From Halorubrum ruber (GTDB lineage Archaea; Halobacteriota; Halobacteria; Halobacteriales; Haloferacaceae): a DNA stretch of 64,000 bases. Each line of letters starts with the position of its first letter. The first letter of the stretch is position 1. The DNA lies in assembly GCF_018228765.1 (NCBI RefSeq), contig NZ_CP073695.1:930001-994000 (forward strand), given 5' to 3'. This document shows positions 22,232 to 36,205 of this stretch, one piece after another. The notes under the pieces were generated by a model, which ran no database searches, had not been told where the DNA came from, and was given only the letters and a program-made list of their open reading frames with translations. Both the position numbers and the translations under genes were made by a program.

Positions 22232-23530
22232 GTGAGGCGAACCAACACGTTCGCGATACGCCCGCTCTCCGACAACGACAAGCGGCTACTGCGGGACCTG
22301 TTGGACGCCTCTGCGAGCCTGTGGAACGAGTTGAACTACGAGCGCCGCCAGCAGTTCTTCGACGGCAAAAGCGTGTGGGACACCGCCGACTACCGGAAAC
22401 AGTATATCGATGTTCTCGGCTCTGCCACTGCACAGCAGGTCATTCGGAAGAACAAATCGGCGTGGCAGTCGTTTTTCGCCACCCACGGGAACGGCGAGGA
22501 CACCGCACCGCCGGGCTACTGGGGCAACGAGGACGACGGTAGAGAACTCCGCACGTTTATCCGCAACGACCAGTACACGCTGGAAACCGGCGAGCGGTCA
22601 CGAATCGAGATACCAGTCGGTCAAGCCCTGAAAGACGAGTACGGGCTTGGGTATCACGACCGCCTTCGCCTCGAAGTGTGTGGCGCTCCGAAATGGGACG
22701 GCGAACAGGGCCGATTGGAGATACAGTACGACGAGACAGACGACACGTTCAGGGCCTTTCAGCCTGTCACCGTACCTGATTCTCGGCAGGATTCACCACT
22801 GGCTTCTCACGAAGCCGCGCTGGACGTGGGCGCAAACAATCTCGTCGCCTGTACCACCACGACCGGCCAGCAGTACCTCTACGAAGGCCGCGACCTGTTC
22901 GACTGCTTCCGGGAAACCACCGAGGAGATTGCCCGGTTACAGTCCAAACTCCACGAGGGACGATACAGCAGTTAGCGGATTCGGCGGCTGTATCGCACAC
23001 GGACGCGACGGCGCAACCACGCACAGGACGCGCTGGTTCGAGACCTGATGGAACGGCTCTATGCCGAAGGGGTCGCAACGGTGTACGTGGGCGACCTCAC
23101 GGACGTTCTTTCGACGCATTGGTGTGCTGAGGTGAACGCAAAGACGCACCACTTCTGGGCGTTCCGGGCGTTCATCGAGCGGCTGTCCCACACCGCCGAA
23201 GAATACGGTATCACGGTCGAAGTACGGTCAGAAGCCGACACAACGCGAACGTGCCCAGCGTGTGGCGAGCAGGACGACACCGACCGGGACGGCGACGTGT
23301 TCCGGTGTCCGTGCGGTCACGAAGCCCACGCCGACCTGTGCGCGTCTCGCACGTTCCTCGACGAGCAGGCTGGCGAAGCCGTTAGGTCGATGGCACGGCC
23401 CGTGCGCCTCAAGTGGGACGACCACACCTGGTCGGAGCTATCACACTCTCCCGAGAGGGCCAGTCCCAACGAGGAGCGCACAAACCGGAGTACCGGGGAC
23501 GGGAAAGTTGCCTCTGTGGGGACAGCATAG
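22232..23530 (+). pseudogene. tnpB: TnpB-like RNA-guided nuclease with one internal stop codon
   Basis: Starts at GTG 22232 and runs to 23530 in a single frame, broken only by TAG at 22973-22975 (AGC AGT TAG CGG ATT CGG), where family members have a sense codon (probably Lys). Otherwise intact: RuvC-I Asp in [11 protein letters not shown], a second RuvC region in YVGDLTDV (Asp where most TnpB have Glu), zinc-finger cysteines CPAC and CPC, and a RuvC-III Asp in HEAHADLCA. The single-base nature suggests recent loss, or that a two-part protein is still made. Confidence 0.85.
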
Positions 23531-26708: not shown

Positions 26709-27629
26709 CTACGTGCTCTGGGTGAAGCCGTACGCGGCTTGGTCACGGCGGCGTGTAACTGCGTACGGGGTGGCAAACGCGTAGGTTTTGGTGTCGTTGA
26801 GCCAAGACAGCAGTGTCAGCGTCGTCGCCACGTCGTCGTCCACGCTCAGTTCTGCCACCGCCGTGTCGACGACCGCCGGTTGCCAAGGCGGGCCGTCACT
26901 GCTCTCGAGTTCGGACACGGTGTCGACACCGGCGTCGGCGAGTACCGTCGCTACCGGCTCTGGGACCGCCGGCAGCTCGCTGAGCGTGTGCGACGGTAGG
27001 TTTCGATCCGGCTGGACACGCACCTCCACCGGCGGGGTGAGCAGATCCCCGTCAGCGGTCTCGAGGAGTTCATTGGCCTCGGTGAACGAGTCTCGCGCCT
27101 GGCGGAACCGGATGCGCGCAAGCGTCTGGCTCCCCTGCGTGTACGCGATGATCGCCACCCGGAAACTGTGTTCGGCTGCGTTCAGTGCCTCTGTGACCGT
27201 CGCTCGTTGTTTGGCGCGCGTCTCGACCGTCGCTAACGACTGACGTGTCGTCTTGAGTTGGCGGTCGATCTCGGCGCGTGTTTCCGTAGCACCAGCGTCG
27301 AGAGCATCGCCGGCAGCCTCATACTGGGTGATCGCCGCGTTGTAGGCGTCGATCGCGTCGTCGAGGCGGTTGTTCTCTCTGGCGGTCGCAGCTGTGTCAA
27401 GCGCCTCGTCGGCGTCAGCTCGCAACTCCTCGACCGAGCCGGTCGTGATTTCGGATCGTGGCTCATGTCGCGTGGGATCGGTGGCAGCCTGCCCGTCGCC
27501 AGTGCCGGTCGCTCCGATGATCCAGAGCAGCGCAAGGGCGAATAGGAGCATGCCCAGCACAACCCCGACAAGCCACACCGCGTACGTACTCTGAAACACG
27601 GGTCGAGGTGGGTTGTCTCTCCATATCAA
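26709..27629 (-). CDS. Membrane-anchored helical-repeat protein, divergent from the tubulin-like operon
   Basis: 306 residues if the TTG at 27629 is used; no in-frame ATG precedes the membrane helix, and a GTG lies ten codons in, so the start is uncertain. One N-terminal membrane helix (about 16-38) is followed by a Gly/Asp-rich spacer and a long helical region with TPR-like heptads (about 66-205: ALDTAATARENNRLDDAIDA). Near residues 220-250 there is a helix-hairpin-helix-like segment (PEPVATVLADAGVDTVSEL). Function unknown. It lies at the edge of the accessory island and may belong with the operon at 28258. Confidence 0.6.
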   Translation of the reverse strand: MIWRDNPPRPVFQSTYAVWLVGVVLGMLLFALALLWIIGATGTGDGQAATDPTRHEPRSEITTGSVEELRADADEALDTAATARENNRLDDAIDAYNAAITQYEAAGDALDAGATETRAEIDRQLKTTRQSLATVETRAKQRATVTEALNAAEHSFRVAIIAYTQGSQTLARIRFRQARDSFTEANELLETADGDLLTPPVEVRVQPDRNLPSHTLSELPAVPEPVATVLADAGVDTVSELESSDGPPWQPAVVDTAVAELSVDDDVATTLTLLSWLNDTKTYAFATPYAVTRRRDQAAYGFTQST

Positions 27630-28257: not shown

Positions 28258-31200
28258 ATGAATCTACCAAGTCGGATCTTCGCGGTGGGTGGCGCCGGCA
28301 AGGCGATCACCTACGAGCTGCTGGAGGCAGACTGGGTCCAAGAGTCGGTGCTCCAGCCGCGACGAAACCCGCGGTCGCTGACGGTGACCGTGATCGACAC
28401 GGCCGAAGAAGAGGAGAACAGAGATCTCGAGCGAATCCAGTCGATCAACGATTCGATTCAGGAGACAAAAAACCGGCTCCGCGAATCCGACGACCACGAG
28501 GGTCGACTCGGCGAGATCAACATCGATTACCTGCCGCTGACGCGGAACATCCAGCTCCACGATCAGAACGACCTGATCGGCGCGGAGGCGGTGCCGCGCA
28601 TCGCGGCCGGCGCCGGTATCGACGAGGAGAACTGGTGGCTCAAGCCCGAGTTCATCAACGAGAACCTCGATTTCGCAACGGGTGTCGTCAGGAAACGCGG
28701 CCTCGGCAAGGGACTCTACTACAAGTCCTACGCCGAAGACGACAGCGTCCGCACGTCGATCGACCTGCCGGACCGCGGAAAGGTCGCCGTGATCGCCGGC
28801 CTGGGTGGTGGCTCCGGCTCCGGGATCTTCATCGACTTGGTCCGACACCTCAAGCGGACGAAACGGACCGCCGAGATCACGCTGTTCGGGGTGTTGCCCA
28901 ACGACGAGGAGGGTGACGCCGAGAGCGCGAACGCCCACGCCGTCCTCTCCGAGCTGGAGTACATGAGCCTTCAGGGTGAGAACCTGTTCAAAGACCGGGT
29001 GCTCATCCCGATCGACCCGACCGGGTTCGGCGGGAAAAAGGGGAACCTCATCCAAAGTTCCGACGCGCTCGTCGAGTTCGACCGGGCGGCGATCTACCTC
29101 ATCACGTCGTACTACAACATGATGGACATGGAGGACCCGTTCGCGGACACCCCCTCGTACGCGCCGTTCATCATGGGGATCCCGCAGGTCCTCCGGTACA
29201 ACGTCGACGCCATCCAAGACGCGAAGACGGTCACCAAAGAGATACTCAACGCGAAACAGGACGCGCTGGAAGCGGAGGAGGACATCTACACGGGCGTCGA
29301 CCGGTTCCTCTCGCGGGAGTGGAGCCCCGACGAGATGGAAGGTGAGCTCCACGACTCCGACCGGACGGATCTCGAGACGCGGCTCGACAACGTGTGGTCG
29401 CTCACCGAGCTCGATATCTTCACCGAACTCGAGTACGAGTCCGTCTCCGCCTACCGCGAGATCATGTCGGAAGCGGAGGCCGAGACCGACGACATCCTCG
29501 ACCAGATCGACGTTATCGCGGGCTCGATTCGGGCGGGCACCGCCCGCATCGGCGACAACGAACAGTACGTCGATAGCATCGACAAGCAGCTGGCCGATAT
29601 CATCGACACGGAGCTCAACCGGATCGCCCACCGCAAGGACCTGCTCGTCCGGCTCCGGTCGATCGACAACAACCGCGTCGAGGGGACGATCAGCTACCTC
29701 CTCGCCGTCGAAGACGAGGGGATCAACGCCGGGGTGCGCATCAACCGCTTAGAAGCGAAACGGGACGAGGTGACCGAGCGGCGGGACCGCCTCCAGTCCG
29801 AGCTCAAAGAGGCCGAAGCCGAGCTCGACACCCGCAAGCGCGAACAGCAGGACGAGGTGGACCGCCGGGTCGCCACGTGGAAGAACGCGGTCGAGCCGCT
29901 GTATCGAGAGTACACCGACTGTCAGTCGATGGCCGTCGACGAGCTGGTCGGCGACCTCCGGAACGGGCTCGAATCCTTCGCGCGCGCCGTCGAGAACGCC
30001 GAGGACCCGGACCAGGTGGAGGCCGTCAACGACAGCACCGTCCGGACGGCGCTCGACGACATCAGCACCGAGTTCGACACGGTCGGCGTCGACACGACCG
30101 ACATCGAGCGGCGGATCAACTCCTCGCTCGCGGACCTGGCGGACGCCAAGAAGTCGTTCCTCACGATGAACGAGGAGGAGGGGACGATCGAGTCCATCCT
30201 CCCGTGGGACTCCTCGAGCGAGGAGGAACGCAAGAAGGCGGAAAAGAACTACCGCCGGAAGCGGAGTCAGCTTGACGACGCGGAGGTGTTCAAGATGTCG
30301 CGGGCGGGCAGCAACCTGTCGATCGAGGTTGAGTTCACCGTCACCGATCTGAAACACCTCATCGAGGCCGAAATCGACGAGCAGCAACAGGAGATCGTGT
30401 CGCGGACCCGGTCGGAACTCGACGAGGAACACCGGGCGGCGCTCGACGAGCTGGAGCGTGACCTCGAATCGGGGATCGGATTCGACCAGCTCACGCGCCA
30501 GTTCGAGGAGCTCGTCCGCGACGAGATCGTCGAGACCGCCGACATCGAACGGCGGCGTGACGACCTCGAATCGGATCTCGAAACCGCGGAGACGGAGGCG
30601 GATCTGTACGACGCGACCGTCACCCTGTTCGAGGAGCTGAACGGCCCCCGGGACTCGTTCCTGAGCTCCCAAGAGACGTATCAGCGGCTCCGCGAGGAGT
30701 ACAACGCCGAGCAGGACTCCTCGGTCGCGACCGAAACGGAGGAGTACAGCTACGTGAAGACGATCCAGCCGAACGACATCCTCCAGCTCCGCGACGACAC
30801 CGACATCGCCGACAGCAAGATCTTCGACGACGAGACCGAACGTCAGCGGCTGCGCGGCTCGCTCGAGGAGCTCGCTCGGAACGCCCACAACCCCCGCTAC
30901 ACCGGCATTCGGCGCCGCCGGATCAGCGGTGACCGCGCGCGGTACAACGAGATGAACGTCGTCGTCGGCGTGATGAGCCGGGCGATCGACCAGATCAACG
31001 ACGTTGCCGACCTCAAATCCGAGTTCCAGGGGGCGTACAACCTCGGTGCGGGCGGCGAAAACTACGCCTCGTTCCCGGTGAGCGCGGGTGGCAGCTGGGA
31101 TGTCGGCCTGGGGATCTTCATCGACGGGATCTTCCTGGATAACCTCCGGGCGGAGATCGAGGCCGACGGCTACCGGAATGGATACGAGTCACGGAAACAG

Positions 31201-31410
31201 TCCGACGAGACCGACATTCTCGTCCACCACGCGTACGGCCTCGACGAGGGGTACTTCGTGAAGCGCGACTCCGTGTTGAACCTCGAGCATCCCGACGACG
31301 TGGAGTTCTTCCTCAGAGACGAAGGCGAGATCAAAGCCGATCTGCTCGAGAACCACATCAGTCGAACCGACTTCGTCGCTCCCGCTGACGGGGAGGAGGG
31401 GGAGGAGTAA
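28258..31410 (+). CDS. Large tubulin/FtsZ-like protein with coiled-coil region
   Basis: 1,050 residues. The N-terminus FAVGGAGKAITYELLE corresponds to the first nucleotide loop of tubulin/FtsZ, and GLGGGSGSGIFIDLVR (GGGSGSG at 183-189) to the GGGTGTG phosphate-binding signature. These are features of the Tubulin_2-type family. From about residue 410 to 800 the chain is highly charged and helical, with long coiled coils. A conserved C-terminal domain follows (GAYNLGAGGENYASFPVSAGG). I start at ATG 28258 rather than GTG 28246. It is the first gene of an operon; the GTPase gene follows after 5 nt. Function unknown; a GTP-dependent filament or regulator is inferred. Confidence 0.8.
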   Translation: MNLPSRIFAVGGAGKAITYELLEADWVQESVLQPRRNPRSLTVTVIDTAEEEENRDLERIQSINDSIQETKNRLRESDDHEGRLGEINIDYLPLTRNIQLHDQNDLIGAEAVPRIAAGAGIDEENWWLKPEFINENLDFATGVVRKRGLGKGLYYKSYAEDDSVRTSIDLPDRGKVAVIAGLGGGSGSGIFIDLVRHLKRTKRTAEITLFGVLPNDEEGDAESANAHAVLSELEYMSLQGENLFKDRVLIPIDPTGFGGKKGNLIQSSDALVEFDRAAIYLITSYYNMMDMEDPFADTPSYAPFIMGIPQVLRYNVDAIQDAKTVTKEILNAKQDALEAEEDIYTGVDRFLSREWSPDEMEGELHDSDRTDLETRLDNVWSLTELDIFTELEYESVSAYREIMSEAEAETDDILDQIDVIAGSIRAGTARIGDNEQYVDSIDKQLADIIDTELNRIAHRKDLLVRLRSIDNNRVEGTISYLLAVEDEGINAGVRINRLEAKRDEVTERRDRLQSELKEAEAELDTRKREQQDEVDRRVATWKNAVEPLYREYTDCQSMAVDELVGDLRNGLESFARAVENAEDPDQVEAVNDSTVRTALDDISTEFDTVGVDTTDIERRINSSLADLADAKKSFLTMNEEEGTIESILPWDSSSEEERKKAEKNYRRKRSQLDDAEVFKMSRAGSNLSIEVEFTVTDLKHLIEAEIDEQQQEIVSRTRSELDEEHRAALDELERDLESGIGFDQLTRQFEELVRDEIVETADIERRRDDLESDLETAETEADLYDATVTLFEELNGPRDSFLSSQETYQRLREEYNAEQDSSVATETEEYSYVKTIQPNDILQLRDDTDIADSKIFDDETERQRLRGSLEELARNAHNPRYTGIRRRRISGDRARYNEMNVVVGVMSRAIDQINDVADLKSEFQGAYNLGAGGENYASFPVSAGGSWDVGLGIFIDGIFLDNLRAEIEADGYRNGYESRKQSDETDILVHHAYGLDEGYFVKRDSVLNLEHPDDVEFFLRDEGEIKADLLENHISRTDFVAPADGEEGEE

Positions 31411-31415
31411 CAGCG

Positions 31416-32858
31416 ATGGACTCTCCAGTCGCGTTCCTCGAGGACCACGGCGAGAAGTTCTTCCTCGGCGTGTACTTCCTCATCATGATCGTCGTCGCCG
31501 GGCCGCTCTTCCTGACGCTCGGTGAGGCGTGGATCGCGTCCGACGTGTTCCGGCCACTGATACTCTCGTTGAACCCGCTGTTGTCGGTGTCGCTCGAGCA
31601 GTTCTCCGCCATGGTGTTCGGGATCTACCTCGGCCTGCTCGCGCTGATGACGGTCGACCCGAAAAAGCGTGTTCAGGGGGCCTTGCTCTGGCTCGGCACC
31701 GGCTCCGCGCTCATCGGCCTGCTTTCGATCGGCCTGTTCATCCCGAATATTGATTTCGTCGCGAACATCGCCTGGCTCGGGGCCGGCCTCGTCGGCGGCA
31801 CGATCGTCGGCGGCGGCAAACAGCTGATGGAGGTCCGGACCACCTCCGCGCTCGAGTTCCGTCGGTCCGCGAGCATTCTGTTCTACCTGATAACCGCCAT
31901 CGTCCTCGTCGGCCTCGTCGAATTCCACGTCAACTTCCCGCAGTTCGTCGACCCCTCAGGCGGCACTGTCGAGATCATCGCGCCGGAGCCGACGGTCTCG
32001 GTCGCGTGGGGTGGGATCACCACGAACGTGCTGATGGCGGGCGTCTTCGTCGTCACGCTCCGGCGGTTCGTCACGTACGACTCCTCGGAGAACTTCTTCG
32101 TTCTCGGGCCGCCGGGGTCGGGCAAATCGCTGTTCCTCGTCGGGAAGTATCTCGCCGCGCTCGACGACGCGGTCGATCGGAAAAGCGACACGCCGCTGAA
32201 CCCGAGCGGCGACCTGATGGAGCTCGTCGGCCGGCTCGACGCCGCGACCCAAAACGCCGGTTGGGAGCTCGACTCGACGGGTGCGACCGAGGTCGAAGAT
32301 CTTCAGTTCCGGTTCGTCAACGGGCGGGTCTTCCCGAAAAACATCGAGCTGTCGAGCCTCGATTACGCCGGCGAGTATCTCGAGGAGCTTCCGGGCGCGC
32401 TGATGAGCCCCGACTCGGAGATCGACAACTCCACGGTCCAGCTGCTGTCAGACCGCGTGCGCGCGGCGAACACGCTGATTCTGGTGATCGACGTCGAGCG
32501 GTATCACAACAACGAGCCGCTGGGGATCGAGCCGTACTTCGACATCCTCGATACGGCCGACAACAAGGACGTGCTCCTCGTCGCGACGAAGTCCGATATC
32601 TTGGCCCAGCAGTTCGAAGACGAGCAGGCGCTGGACCCGCACCAGTACTTCGAGGACTTCCGGCAGTACGTGAACGACACGCTAATCGAGAACAACCAAG
32701 CCGTTCGGACGCTCGTCCAGGACACCTCCGGCGCGGAGATCCACCCGGTGTACTACGAGACGACGGTGAACGACGACGGCGAACGCGTGCCGATGCGCGA
32801 CCGCAATGGGAACGTGATGACGGTCGGCTTCGAGGAGCTGTTAGAGAAACTGGGGTGA
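31416..32858 (+). CDS. Polytopic membrane protein with cytoplasmic P-loop GTPase domain
   Basis: 480 residues. Six or seven membrane helices lie within residues 1-220. The GTPase domain follows: G1 loop GPPGSGKS (231-238), a DxxG motif DYAG (316-319), and the guanine-specificity motif TKSD (391-394). LILVIDVERYHNNEP corresponds to the beta strand before G4. A GTPase fused to a multi-helix membrane domain is unusual in archaea. It lies 5 nt after the tubulin-like gene and 6 nt before the next gene, so the three products probably act together, perhaps with this protein as the switch that couples the envelope to the tubulin-like protein. Confidence 0.8.
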   Translation: MDSPVAFLEDHGEKFFLGVYFLIMIVVAGPLFLTLGEAWIASDVFRPLILSLNPLLSVSLEQFSAMVFGIYLGLLALMTVDPKKRVQGALLWLGTGSALIGLLSIGLFIPNIDFVANIAWLGAGLVGGTIVGGGKQLMEVRTTSALEFRRSASILFYLITAIVLVGLVEFHVNFPQFVDPSGGTVEIIAPEPTVSVAWGGITTNVLMAGVFVVTLRRFVTYDSSENFFVLGPPGSGKSLFLVGKYLAALDDAVDRKSDTPLNPSGDLMELVGRLDAATQNAGWELDSTGATEVEDLQFRFVNGRVFPKNIELSSLDYAGEYLEELPGALMSPDSEIDNSTVQLLSDRVRAANTLILVIDVERYHNNEPLGIEPYFDILDTADNKDVLLVATKSDILAQQFEDEQALDPHQYFEDFRQYVNDTLIENNQAVRTLVQDTSGAEIHPVYYETTVNDDGERVPMRDRNGNVMTVGFEELLEKLG

Positions 32859-32864
32859 TCACGC

Positions 32865-34589
32865 ATGTCAACGCTACGCATCTACGACACGAAGGGGAAC
32901 GCCTACTCCCCTGATGGTACCGCGACGGGATCCAACGAGCAGATCAAAGAGCTGTTTTACGGCGGCGTTCGGCTGGCGATTCGGTCGGACCACAGACAGG
33001 AGATCAGTCTGTTCTTCCGTGCGCGTGAGTCCCGCAACGCGCGCACTGAACAGTTCTACGCCGTCTACTCCGTGGACAACTCCGCGGCGCCGCTTCAAGA
33101 CCTCATCAGCGATCTCACGACGCGTATCGAGTCCGAGTGGGGGTACACGATTGACGAGTCCTCGGACGAGATGCAGGTGTACCGCGAACTGAAACGCGGG
33201 AACACGGCCGTCCCTGGCGACAGTACGGAACAGGATATCCTCGCCGAGCTCATCACGTCCCGGAGTTCGGTGACAGTGGGTGTGTCGGACGAACGCAACG
33301 CCATCGGCCTACTCAGCGAGTACCTCGGGCAGTACGACCAAGCAGCAGTCGCCGACTCGATGGATGCGGACGTACTCTCGACGTTCGACCTCGTCGTCAC
33401 GCCGGGTGACCACCGCGGTATCACGCCGCTCGGCGCGACGGAAGAGCGGTGGGAGTCGACGTCTCGGTCCCTCCGCGACAAGCATATCAAACAGGAAATC
33501 GCGTCGATCCGCGAGTCGGTCGAGACGCTTTCGCGAGACTATGGCCTGTCAAACGGCGAAATTCGAAAGCGCGTCCAGAGTAGCGTGCCGGCGCTCAAAC
33601 CCCCTGCGACCAGCTCTAACCTCGGGTCACGAGGGACCCAGTCGGACGACGATTCGCTGCTTTCTCCGGAAGTAGGGCTGTACATCGCCATCGGGGCCGT
33701 CGTGTTGCTCGTCCTGTTCGCTGCGGTTACTTTTGGCCCTTCGCTGTTGGGCCTCGATTCCGGTGACGCGGGCGACCAATCGACCGTGTCCGGTGCGCTT
33801 ATCGATAATACGACTGGCCAGCAACTCAACAGTTCGACCGGGAACATCTCGGTTATTCTCCGCAACGAAAACGGCTTGCTGAACACGACTGACCAGCCGA
33901 CGTATAATTTCAGTGTCAACGAGACGCTGATAGCGAACGCCACTCTGGTCGCCACCGCAGACGGCTACGAGGAGCAGCGGCTGAATATTTCTGAGGACCG
34001 TCTCGGAGGGAATATCTCCCTGGATCCGACCCCACCTGCCGACGATTCTTCCGAACGCTCCCGTGTTGAGGGCGCCGTGATCGACTCAAACACCAGCGAG
34101 GGTGTCGCCGGCGCCACCGTCGTACTCACCAATAGCGACGGTGGGACCAGGGAGGCCACCACGGAGAGCGGGGGGACATACTCGTTTGAAAACATCACGT
34201 ACGGTGAGTACACGCTTTCGGCGAGTGCCACCGGCTACGTGGCGTCGGACAACCGCAGTATCAGCGTGAACAGCCCCGAAACGCAACTCGATAACCTCAC
34301 GATACCACCTCAGGCCTCGCTGTCCGTCCGTTATATCGCGTCGAACACTAATGAGTCGCTGACTGACGGCCGCGTACGCCTGATCGACAGAGAGACCGGT
34401 GCTGAGATCGACAATACAACAAAAGGCGGCAGTGCTTGGTACAACAACAGCAATGTCGATCCCGGTCAGTATACTCTTGAGTTGTCTGAACGGAGCGGAT
34501 ACGAAAATAAGAGCATCGATATTACGTTGACCCCAGGAGAGACTTACCAAACAGAGGTCACCGTCCAGTGCACGGCGGCTAATTGTTGA
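32865..34589 (+). CDS. Single-pass protein with cytoplasmic head and sequon-rich outer domains
   Basis: 574 residues. Residues 1-260 are soluble, with no family I recognise (starts STLRIYDTKGNAYSPDG). One membrane helix lies at about 270-293 (YIAIGAVVLLVLFAAV). The rest should face outside: at least three beta-sandwich units of the carboxypeptidase-regulatory type (VEGAVIDSNTSEGVAGATVV, TTESGGTYSFENITYGEYTL, then DGRVRLIDRETGAEIDN). More than twelve N-x-S/T sequons fit S-layer-type glycosylation. It ends in a Cys-containing tail. Third gene of the operon; its role may be sensing or adhesion. Confidence 0.78.
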   Translation: MSTLRIYDTKGNAYSPDGTATGSNEQIKELFYGGVRLAIRSDHRQEISLFFRARESRNARTEQFYAVYSVDNSAAPLQDLISDLTTRIESEWGYTIDESSDEMQVYRELKRGNTAVPGDSTEQDILAELITSRSSVTVGVSDERNAIGLLSEYLGQYDQAAVADSMDADVLSTFDLVVTPGDHRGITPLGATEERWESTSRSLRDKHIKQEIASIRESVETLSRDYGLSNGEIRKRVQSSVPALKPPATSSNLGSRGTQSDDDSLLSPEVGLYIAIGAVVLLVLFAAVTFGPSLLGLDSGDAGDQSTVSGALIDNTTGQQLNSSTGNISVILRNENGLLNTTDQPTYNFSVNETLIANATLVATADGYEEQRLNISEDRLGGNISLDPTPPADDSSERSRVEGAVIDSNTSEGVAGATVVLTNSDGGTREATTESGGTYSFENITYGEYTLSASATGYVASDNRSISVNSPETQLDNLTIPPQASLSVRYIASNTNESLTDGRVRLIDRETGAEIDNTTKGGSAWYNNSNVDPGQYTLELSERSGYENKSIDITLTPGETYQTEVTVQCTAANC

Positions 34590-35030
34590 GTTCACGGTAG
34601 ATAACTACAACTCCTGTGTGCGTTTTCGACCAACGATGACAACCATATTGTTCCGACACGATCTCAGCGTATGTTGTAAGCTCCGTCAACATGCCGCTGA
34701 CGCTTCACTGGTTCTCACCTCCTAGCGCCCCTATCTGCTATTTGGATGCGTCGTCTTCGGGAACTAGATCCACAGGAGACTCGATTAAAACACGACATAT
34801 CCGTTGCTCACCGTGACGTCCGCTGATGAATACACGGACTTCAGTATCCAGATTACTCCGGTCAACCCCTGTCTCGTCGGTAGCGTTCAGATAAGCTGAT
34901 CCATGCGAAGTTGAACGCTACCTTCACGACCGCCGTGGTGTTCCTGATGTAGGGGAGCGGCGGCGTAAATCGGCTCGTTGTGGCCGTCTTCGCTGGCGGT
35001 CGGCGGCCGGTCGCGGTGCTCCGCGCGGCG
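34590..35030. other. Noncoding or decayed region after the tubulin-like operon
   Basis: About 440 bp with no intact gene. A minus-strand piece near 34885-34970 (IRNTTAVVKVAFNFAWISLS) looks like the C-terminal fragment of some protein, possibly a transposase, but I could not assign it. Composition is similar to the rest of the island. Confidence 0.4.
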
Positions 35031-35942
35031 CCGCGGGGACCTCGATCCGCTCGACGATGTCGTTCACCACGGTCGTAGGCGAGGTGTCTTGGACCGTCGC
35101 CTTCGAAGTCAACGCGAGCCGGTTGACGAACGCGTCCGCAACGACGGCCTTGACGTCGTCGAGCGGGACGTACTCCCGGCCGTTCACGAGCGCCCGCGCC
35201 CGGCTGGCCTCGAAGAGGCGCTTGGATGCCGCGCGGCGACACCCCGACCTCAACCCGACCGTCAGCGCGGGTCGCCTCGCCGAGCGTGATCATATAGTCG
35301 CGGAGCGACCCGCCGACGGTCACGCGCTCCGGAACGTCCTGAAAGCGCGGGACGGTCTCGCCGTCGATGACCCGATTCAGCTCCGGAGCCCGAGCCGTGC
35401 GGTCGTCCCACCGGTCGAGGACCGTTCGTATCCCCTCGCCGTCGGGGGATCCGAGTGTCGCCTTCATGATGAACCGGCCGCGCTGCGCCTCCGGAAGGGC
35501 GAACGTTTCCTCCTGTTCGACCGGATTCCGCGTCTCGATGACGAAGAACGGGTCTTGGAGCTGGTAGGTGGTGCCGTCCGCCGAGACCTGCCCTTCCAAC
35601 ATCGCCTCGAGCAGGGCCGCCTGCGTCTTCGGCGGTGCGCAGTTGATCCCGTCGGCCAGCACGACGTTCGCGAAGATCGGGTCCCTCCGCGAACGCGAAC
35701 TCGCCGGCCTCCTCGCGGTAGATATGCGATTCGGTAATATTCGACGGTAGCAGGTCCGGCGTGAACTGGCCGGTTGAAGAAGAGTCCGAGCACCGTCGCA
35801 AAGCTCTACGCCGTGGGGATTTTTCCGGTGCCGGAGACGTCCTCCAAGAGCACGTGCTCCCGGGACAACACGCCGGTGAGGACGGTTTTGATGACCGACC
35901 GGCCGACAAGGCGACGTCCGATATCGTGTCGATGCCATCACC
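35031..35942 (-). pseudogene. Decayed MoxR-family AAA ATPase
   Basis: Pieces of one MoxR protein are spread over at least three frames on the minus strand. They are VIKTVLTGVLSREHVLLEDV (P-loop region, ending SGTGK but then broken by a stop), FTPDLLPSNITESHIYREEA, the long middle PPKTQAALLEAMLEGQVSAD...ETRNPVEQEETFALPEAQRG, and the lid LVNGREYVPLDDVKAVVADA. Walker B reads LADGINCAPP where DEINRAPP is expected, so the catalytic Glu is lost as well. It was probably once functional here, perhaps with the neighbouring GTPase operon, since MoxR ATPases often serve as chaperones for adjacent systems. Confidence 0.85.
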
Positions 35943-36205
35943 GTACCCGCTGCTGCGTCACCGACAACCATACGTCTCCCTCCCGGGCACCCTATTTTAT
36001 CCATCCAACATCTCAACACAGGTGCCAAACTCGGAATCGGCGCCGACCGTGGACCGACTCTCGGACGTAGCGGCCGCGGGACTCCGTGCGTCAGCACCCC
36101 CTCGGGACGCGGTTCGGGGAAACGCGCCGTGTAAAGCGACGTATGTTACCGCGTGCCAGTATCGTTATCTGCGAGCGGCGCCTACGTCCGCGCGGTGTTA
36201 CACAT

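Follow-up and report, generated by a model that had tools for sequence, protein, structure and literature searches.

A 64,000-nucleotide stretch of Halorubrum ruber DNA (contig NZ_CP073695.1, positions 930,001 to 994,000; hereafter the window) contains an operon of three genes, here called A, B, and C. They encode a tubulin-family protein of the FtsZ-like 1 kind, a membrane-anchored P-loop GTPase, and a receptor-like protein with a single membrane helix, respectively (Table 1). The operon is genuine and well conserved, and systems of its kind have been known since 2010. A sequence-only reading of the window had proposed three adjacent genes separated by 5 and 6 nucleotides, and the open reading frames were found just so, all on the plus strand, with 5 nucleotides between A and B and 6 between B and C. 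G+C content of the operon region is about 0.62, versus about 0.70 in most of the window.

Table 1 Positions of the operon genes, their domains and motifs, and the associated genes. Numbers after an L label are positions at that homologous locus; all others are positions in the window.
Feature	Position	Strand	Basis or remark
Gene A, FtsZ-like 1 (Tubulin_2) protein, 1,050 residues	28258..31410	+	PF13809, structure model, fold matches in PDB
T1 nucleotide loop of A, GGAGK (residues 11-15)	28288..28302	+	G11 and G14 invariant in 20 aligned homologues; aligned in 61
T4 tubulin signature loop of A, GGGSGSG (residues 183-189)	28804..28824	+	motif in 61 full-length homologues
C-terminal domain of A (residues 935-1035, FIDGIFLDNL...HHAYGLDEGYFVKR)	31060..31362	+	conserved columns
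Gene B, membrane-anchored P-loop GTPase, 480 residues	31416..32858	+	transmembrane segments, GTPase motifs, homologues
G1/Walker A of B, GPPGSGKS (residue 231)	32106..32129	+	motif, kept in homologues
Gene C, receptor-like single-pass protein, 574 residues	32865..34589	+	Pfam matches in outer part only; one transmembrane helix
Cytosolic head of C (residues 1-246), conserved domain	32865..33602	+	structure model; no convincing Pfam match
Transmembrane helix of C (residues 270-288)	33672..33728	+	hydropathy 2.79
Outer part of C, carboxypeptidase-regulatory/prealbumin-like beta-sandwich repeats	33747..34586	+	Pfam; 17 sequons
Gene E, single-pass membrane protein, 306 residues (start codon uncertain)	26709..27629	-	628 nucleotides upstream of A, divergent
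F genes, paralogues of B	L047:11703-13079, L048:12573-13991, L049:12706-14079, L051:7440-8873		adjoin diverged tubulin-like genes
Pseudokinase-headed receptors	L034:3291-5315, L036:4420-6678, L042:3952-6138, L043:15400-17748		directly after C

The proteins of the operon

A passes the cut-off of Pfam family PF13809 (Tubulin_2; 37.2 bits, cut-off 27) and fails that of the general tubulin family PF00091 (25.3 bits, cut-off 33). It consists of a tubulin-type core (residues ~1-390), a helical and coiled-coil part (~441-830), and a C-terminal domain (~935-1035). The AlphaFold2 model of A, made with 20 homologues, has a mean predicted local distance difference test score (pLDDT) of 79.8 and a predicted template modelling score (pTM) of 0.61, and it follows the tubulin order of strands and helices through residue 314 before turning helical and coiled-coil to ~830, ahead of the C-terminal domain. 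When the model was compared with PDB by Foldseek, the 50 best matches listed were all tubulin, CetZ, TubZ, or FtsZ (probability 1.00), including gamma- and alpha/beta-tubulin and Odinarchaeota tubulin, with CetZ2 among the best. With the Tubulin_2 match and the structural agreement, the tubulin fold that the sequence-only reading had called for is borne out. Both nucleotide loops that it had pointed out were also located, and in all of the 61 full-length homologues aligned, the T4 loop reads GGG[ST]G[SAG]G.

Invariant columns in the C-terminal domain of A are F954, D961, Y976, H991, G994, G998, and R1003. In two genomes, paralogues of about 560 residues have lost the coiled coil and retain the core and the C-terminal domain. 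Thus, A-type proteins can lose the coiled coil, and the C-terminal domain probably functions together with the core. Short FtsZ-like 1 paralogues of this length lie at L035:3931-5613 and L040:9155-10843, with neither B nor C nearby.

Tubulins use an acidic T7 loop for hydrolysis on assembly. In A homologues, an acidic segment follows putative helix H7, reading EDPFAD in haloarchaea and GDIxxxDAK in methanogens, and this segment may be the T7 loop, which could not be identified in FtsZ-like 1 in 2010 (PMC2875224). The simpler proposition that A has no acidic T7 loop was dropped after a larger alignment. Because five other tubulin-family proteins exceed the cut-off in the same genome, A is an additional, non-division member rather than the division FtsZ. 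No relatives of A were found in phage records and viral contigs, giving no sign of a viral origin.

B starts with hydrophobic segments, six in number where the sequence-only reading had counted six or seven, and continues with a P-loop GTPase domain. The GTPase motifs read earlier were all recovered, with G3 (DYAGE) at residue 316 and G4 (TKSD) at residue 391. B is 95% identical to its closest relatives and 22-25% identical to distant ones, among which GPxxxGK[ST] is conserved, DxxGE is nearly invariant, and the fourth motif is variable. It is homologous to B of methanogens (E 1.1e-22), six of ten of which match DO-GTPase2 (best E 6.8e-6). The DO-GTPase match of the window B reaches 12.2 bits, far under the cut-off of 27. 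As a sequence motif, DYAGE would be in keeping with the report of a Walker-B glutamate in double-GTPases. Four diverged loci also encode F, a paralogue of B in which the membrane part persists and the P-loop is gone, making it a pseudo-GTPase. B and F would then pair an active with an inactive copy, recalling the double-GTPase concept in Kaur et al. 2020.

C traverses the membrane once, as had been read from the sequence. Its 17 sequons all lie in the ectodomain, where 5.8 ± 2.0 are expected (at most 13 in 2,000 shuffles of the same residues), and none lies in the head. Pfam families CarboxypepD_reg, SpaA, and PEGA are confined to the outer part. The head is modeled with confidence (pLDDT 91.5, pTM 0.82), has no convincing Pfam match among 27 members, and is homologous to the heads of methanogen C by profile comparison (E 3.7e-6, probability 87). 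Its structural neighbours include the longin/DENN proteins FLCN/FNIP, DENND10, Lst4, and GATOR1, with a best E of 0.018 and a best probability of 0.63, and PAS domains are similar. Longin/DENN modules regulate GTPases. We take the weak longin/DENN-like or PAS-like resemblance of the modeled head as a lead rather than an assignment. A search of the head against a viral fold library gave nothing significant, and searches of solved-structure sequences gave nothing useful for either B or the head of C.

Head and ectodomain of C differ strongly in their evolution. With the two closest relatives, the head shares 85-90% identity and the ectodomain 38-48%, and nonsynonymous divergence (dN) is 0.05-0.09 for the head and 0.43-0.57 for the ectodomain, compared with 0.03-0.04 for A and B; the ectodomain thus evolves about 10 times faster than the head. 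Across haloarchaea, ectodomain length ranges from about 16 to more than 900 residues. CarboxypepD repeats, a PQQ propeller, PGF-pre-PGF, or nearly nothing can take this place, and C on a Haloplanus plasmid is annotated as a PQQ beta-propeller protein. Because the ectodomain evolves fast and varies in length and type, the head and the membrane helix can be regarded as the constant part of C and the outside as a variable reader. The topology, the placement of the sequons, and the contrast between slow head and fast ectodomain agree with the trans-envelope arrangement proposed earlier. That C is primarily an adhesin is not supported, with ectodomains that can shrink to ~16-60 residues while the head persists.

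Conservation of the operon and additional receptors

A type of the operon with 71-93% identity is carried by 13 of 52 Halorubrum genomes, and carriers include Halorubrum xinjiangense, coriense, halodurans, rubrum, cibi, and aquaticum, and Halobellus captivus. Over the order, a B profile is positive in 33 of 293 haloarchaeal genomes, a patchy spread. Of 37 haloarchaeal loci at which a full-length A was called, 28 have A-B-C contiguous on one strand, at identities down to ~20-30%. In five further loci all three genes are present, with F lying between them, B-C in another position, or a broken A. The linkage of the three genes expected elsewhere is therefore present, and methanogens have it too. 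Their operons (L155-L171) encode a signal-peptide and transmembrane protein of ~250 residues followed by A, B, and C; in some of them, a second signal-transmembrane protein of ~510 residues comes after C. Distance matrices correlate between A and B (r = 0.98) and between A and the C head (r = 0.91), values that 0 of 2,000 permutations reach.

The Methanohalobium plasmid pMETEV01 has an A-B-C set of haloarchaeal type (37% identity) that is nested in the haloarchaeal tree, and this placement suggests transfer. Plasmid searches with diverged queries returned matches from archaea only.

Gene E, overlooked by the sequence-only reading, encodes a protein with a single membrane helix and a helical domain in the cytosol. 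Next to A-B-C in other species are Tat-exported PQQ-propeller receptors that terminate in this cytosolic domain. Homologues of E lie beside A-B-C at L031, L092 (two), L093, L099, and L102. E-type receptors occur in six of 97 relatives' genomes, all A-B-C positive (hypergeometric 1.7e-6) and partly far from the operon. That E might be what is left of a decayed PQQ receptor was considered and rejected, as its orthologues in two relatives are also short (~295 residues).

In four relatives, C is followed by another receptor, with a protein-kinase-like head, one transmembrane helix, and a CarboxypepD_reg ectodomain like that of C. The head has VAVR in place of VAIK and HLRIGPE in place of HRD, while DWG and APE are retained. 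Strong matches to this pseudokinase head (E < 1e-35, a threshold picked after viewing the list) are found in 10 of 97 genomes, all A-B-C positive. Counts of both receptor families ignore genome relatedness and are to be read as indications. Several receptors per core, some encoded in trans, fit a shared relay.

Just beyond C, a DUF6517-type putative lipoprotein and a PQQ-propeller protein with weak kinase similarity are encoded at L034, L036, L037, L038, L039, and L042; these were checked with Pfam at L034, L036, and L037, and the others were judged similar. On the upstream side in the window, a TnpB/OrfB-IS605-like gene is split over 22232-22975 and 23048-23530 on the plus strand, in a patch of low G+C content (0.56), and is probably disrupted. 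A TnpB gene is also upstream of the operon on pMETEV01. On the downstream side, a MoxR-type AAA ATPase fragment on the minus strand (34862-36097) has matching frames that are split, so it is likely a pseudogene. It was rejected as a downstream partner, being only a fragment with no counterpart beside other A-B-C loci. The tested neighbours of the window copy are metabolic, with no vWA, Hsp70, OmpA, or kinase genes and no defence-island context.

Known systems and alternative explanations

FtsZ-like 1 was defined from Huta_2051 (1,051 residues) by Makarova and Koonin 2010, who listed as its partners kinases, vWA proteins, and GTPases, the last being membrane-associated in archaea, and who suggested a role in membrane remodelling (PMC2875224). 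A matches Huta_2051 in length and in architecture (FtsZ-like core, coiled coil, and helical C-terminus), B is the linked P-loop GTPase with the membrane association of archaeal operons, and kinases occur near relatives' operons. The vWA and kinase linkage, frequent but not obligatory, is missing among the tested window neighbours and present in relatives. The founding locus has three hypothetical genes beside three kinases (PMC2875224), so the A-B-C trio was probably already in view in 2010. The operon is therefore not the uncharted system that it had been taken for. The C head, the E family, and the pseudo-GTPase F are absent from the main text of that paper, and C could belong to families A1-A2 of its Additional File 6. 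In the literature, no experimental study of FtsZ-like 1 proteins was found.

The conflict systems described by Kaur et al. 2020 contain genes for tubulin, GTPase, vWA, and Hsp70, and a few archaea were mentioned there (PMC7159879). Shared with these systems are a tubulin with a C-terminal coiled coil and a transmembrane GTPase with a Walker-B-type glutamate, and in some archaeal relatives also two GTPase paralogues, vWA, Hsp70, GrpE, and kinase-like partners. The tubulin adjoins vWA, Hsp70, and GrpE on a Haloplanus rubicundus plasmid, and vWA and Hsp70 are present on a plasmid of Halorubrum sp. BOL3-1. Because plasmid haloarchaeal sets adjoin Hsp70 and vWA genes, we join the 2010 and 2020 descriptions. 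On the other hand, C, with its own head and a beta-sandwich ectodomain, occupies the place of the GAP1 and FNIII protein. C as GAP1-N2 was rejected, since GAP1-N2 was detected in a positive control (Corynebacterium glutamicum) but in 0 of 59 genomes. With GAP1-N2 absent and the DO-GTPase cut-off not reached by the window B, the window operon is not filed under the systems of Kaur et al. Compared with CetZ, FtsZ, and TubZ, A has the tubulin fold and T4 motif in common but fails PF00091 and carries a coiled coil and a distinct C-terminal domain.

We conceive that A-B-C, the archaeal FtsZ-like 1 operon, acts as an outside-to-inside relay at the cytoplasmic membrane, with a probability of about one half. 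Several points weigh against it. The polymerisation and GTP coupling proposed by the sequence-only reading are not supported. The acidic T7 loop is only suggested in the main clades and is lost in diverged A copies, the longin/DENN fold matches of the C head are not significant with PAS domains scoring alike, and the receptor counts have the limits given above. In addition, A lacks B and C nearby at two loci (L046 and L050), and B-C lacks A nearby at L104, L108, and L114. A different account is the published family prediction of membrane remodelling (PMC2875224), in which A and B would shape or vesiculate the membrane while C and the receptors would be S-layer or surface anchors, not sensors. 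It gains from the combination of a tubulin-type core with a membrane GTPase and from the membrane proteins throughout the operon, but was already questioned by a reviewer of the 2010 paper. Since an ectodomain that is fast, swappable, or absent, together with several trans-encoded receptors with kinase-like heads, resembles sensing more than structure, we consider anchoring and remodelling possible, if rather unlikely.

The fast-evolving ectodomains would also suit an archaeal branch of the conflict systems of Kaur et al., directed against viruses or competitors, where receptors detect the invader and A and B are the effector assembly. The patchy spread, the plasmid copies, the vWA, Hsp70, and GrpE genes beside plasmid sets, and the pseudo-GTPase F in some loci point the same way. 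However, besides the missing GAP1-N2, the low DO-GTPase score, and the metabolic neighbours, no toxic effector domain was found, and A, B, and C have no match in PADLOC 2.0.0 (known anti-phage systems), so that we judge a conflict system unlikely. An ordinary structural set, that is, a cytoskeletal element that serves to attach the surface layer or to position the cell and does not switch with nucleotide, could be argued from the T7 acidic loop not being conserved in every copy and from the beta-sandwich type of the C ectodomain, which is common in surface proteins. But T1, T4, and the P-loop of B are strictly kept in active copies, implying nucleotide use, and such a set is very improbable.

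A proposed surface-to-scaffold relay

In the relay that we favour, C, E, and, in relatives, the pseudokinase-headed and PQQ-propeller receptors would read a cell-surface cue via the fast-evolving ectodomain, and the slow-evolving head of C would act on the membrane GTPase B. By analogy with longin/DENN-type modules on other GTPases, the head may regulate the nucleotide state of B. In one nucleotide state, B would recruit or organise A under the membrane through the coiled coil and the C-terminal domain of A, resulting in a local scaffold or a membrane-shape response. Gene identities, folds, topology features, co-conservation of A-B-C, and co-occurrence with extra receptors are observations, from which we infer that the proteins make direct contact, that GTP is in control, and that A assembles, along with any purpose. 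The purpose may be membrane remodelling or else a response in conflict or contact, with defence or predation being possible. A broader version is doubtful, namely that exchangeable receptors, beside or far from the core operon, control the GTPase via a longin/DENN-like head and drive assembly of the tubulin-family scaffold, as a widespread archaeal surface signalling that would be the prokaryotic counterpart of receptor-to-small-GTPase-to-cytoskeleton signalling.

That A is FtsZ-like 1 and that archaeal operons pair it with a membrane-associated GTPase was known from 2010. New here are the holding together of A-B-C in haloarchaea with homologous sets in methanogens, the C head as a conserved domain with a confident predicted fold and no Pfam family, and two receptor families, E-type and pseudokinase-headed, that track the core. 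With a fixed core, a defined head, and two tracking receptor families, function becomes testable in laboratory haloarchaea; for Halorubrum lacusprofundi, a gene-deletion system has been published (PMC10102395). If the relay is true, it would link receptors on the archaeal surface to a tubulin-family scaffold by way of a membrane GTPase, which would bear on the origin of such circuits before eukaryotes.

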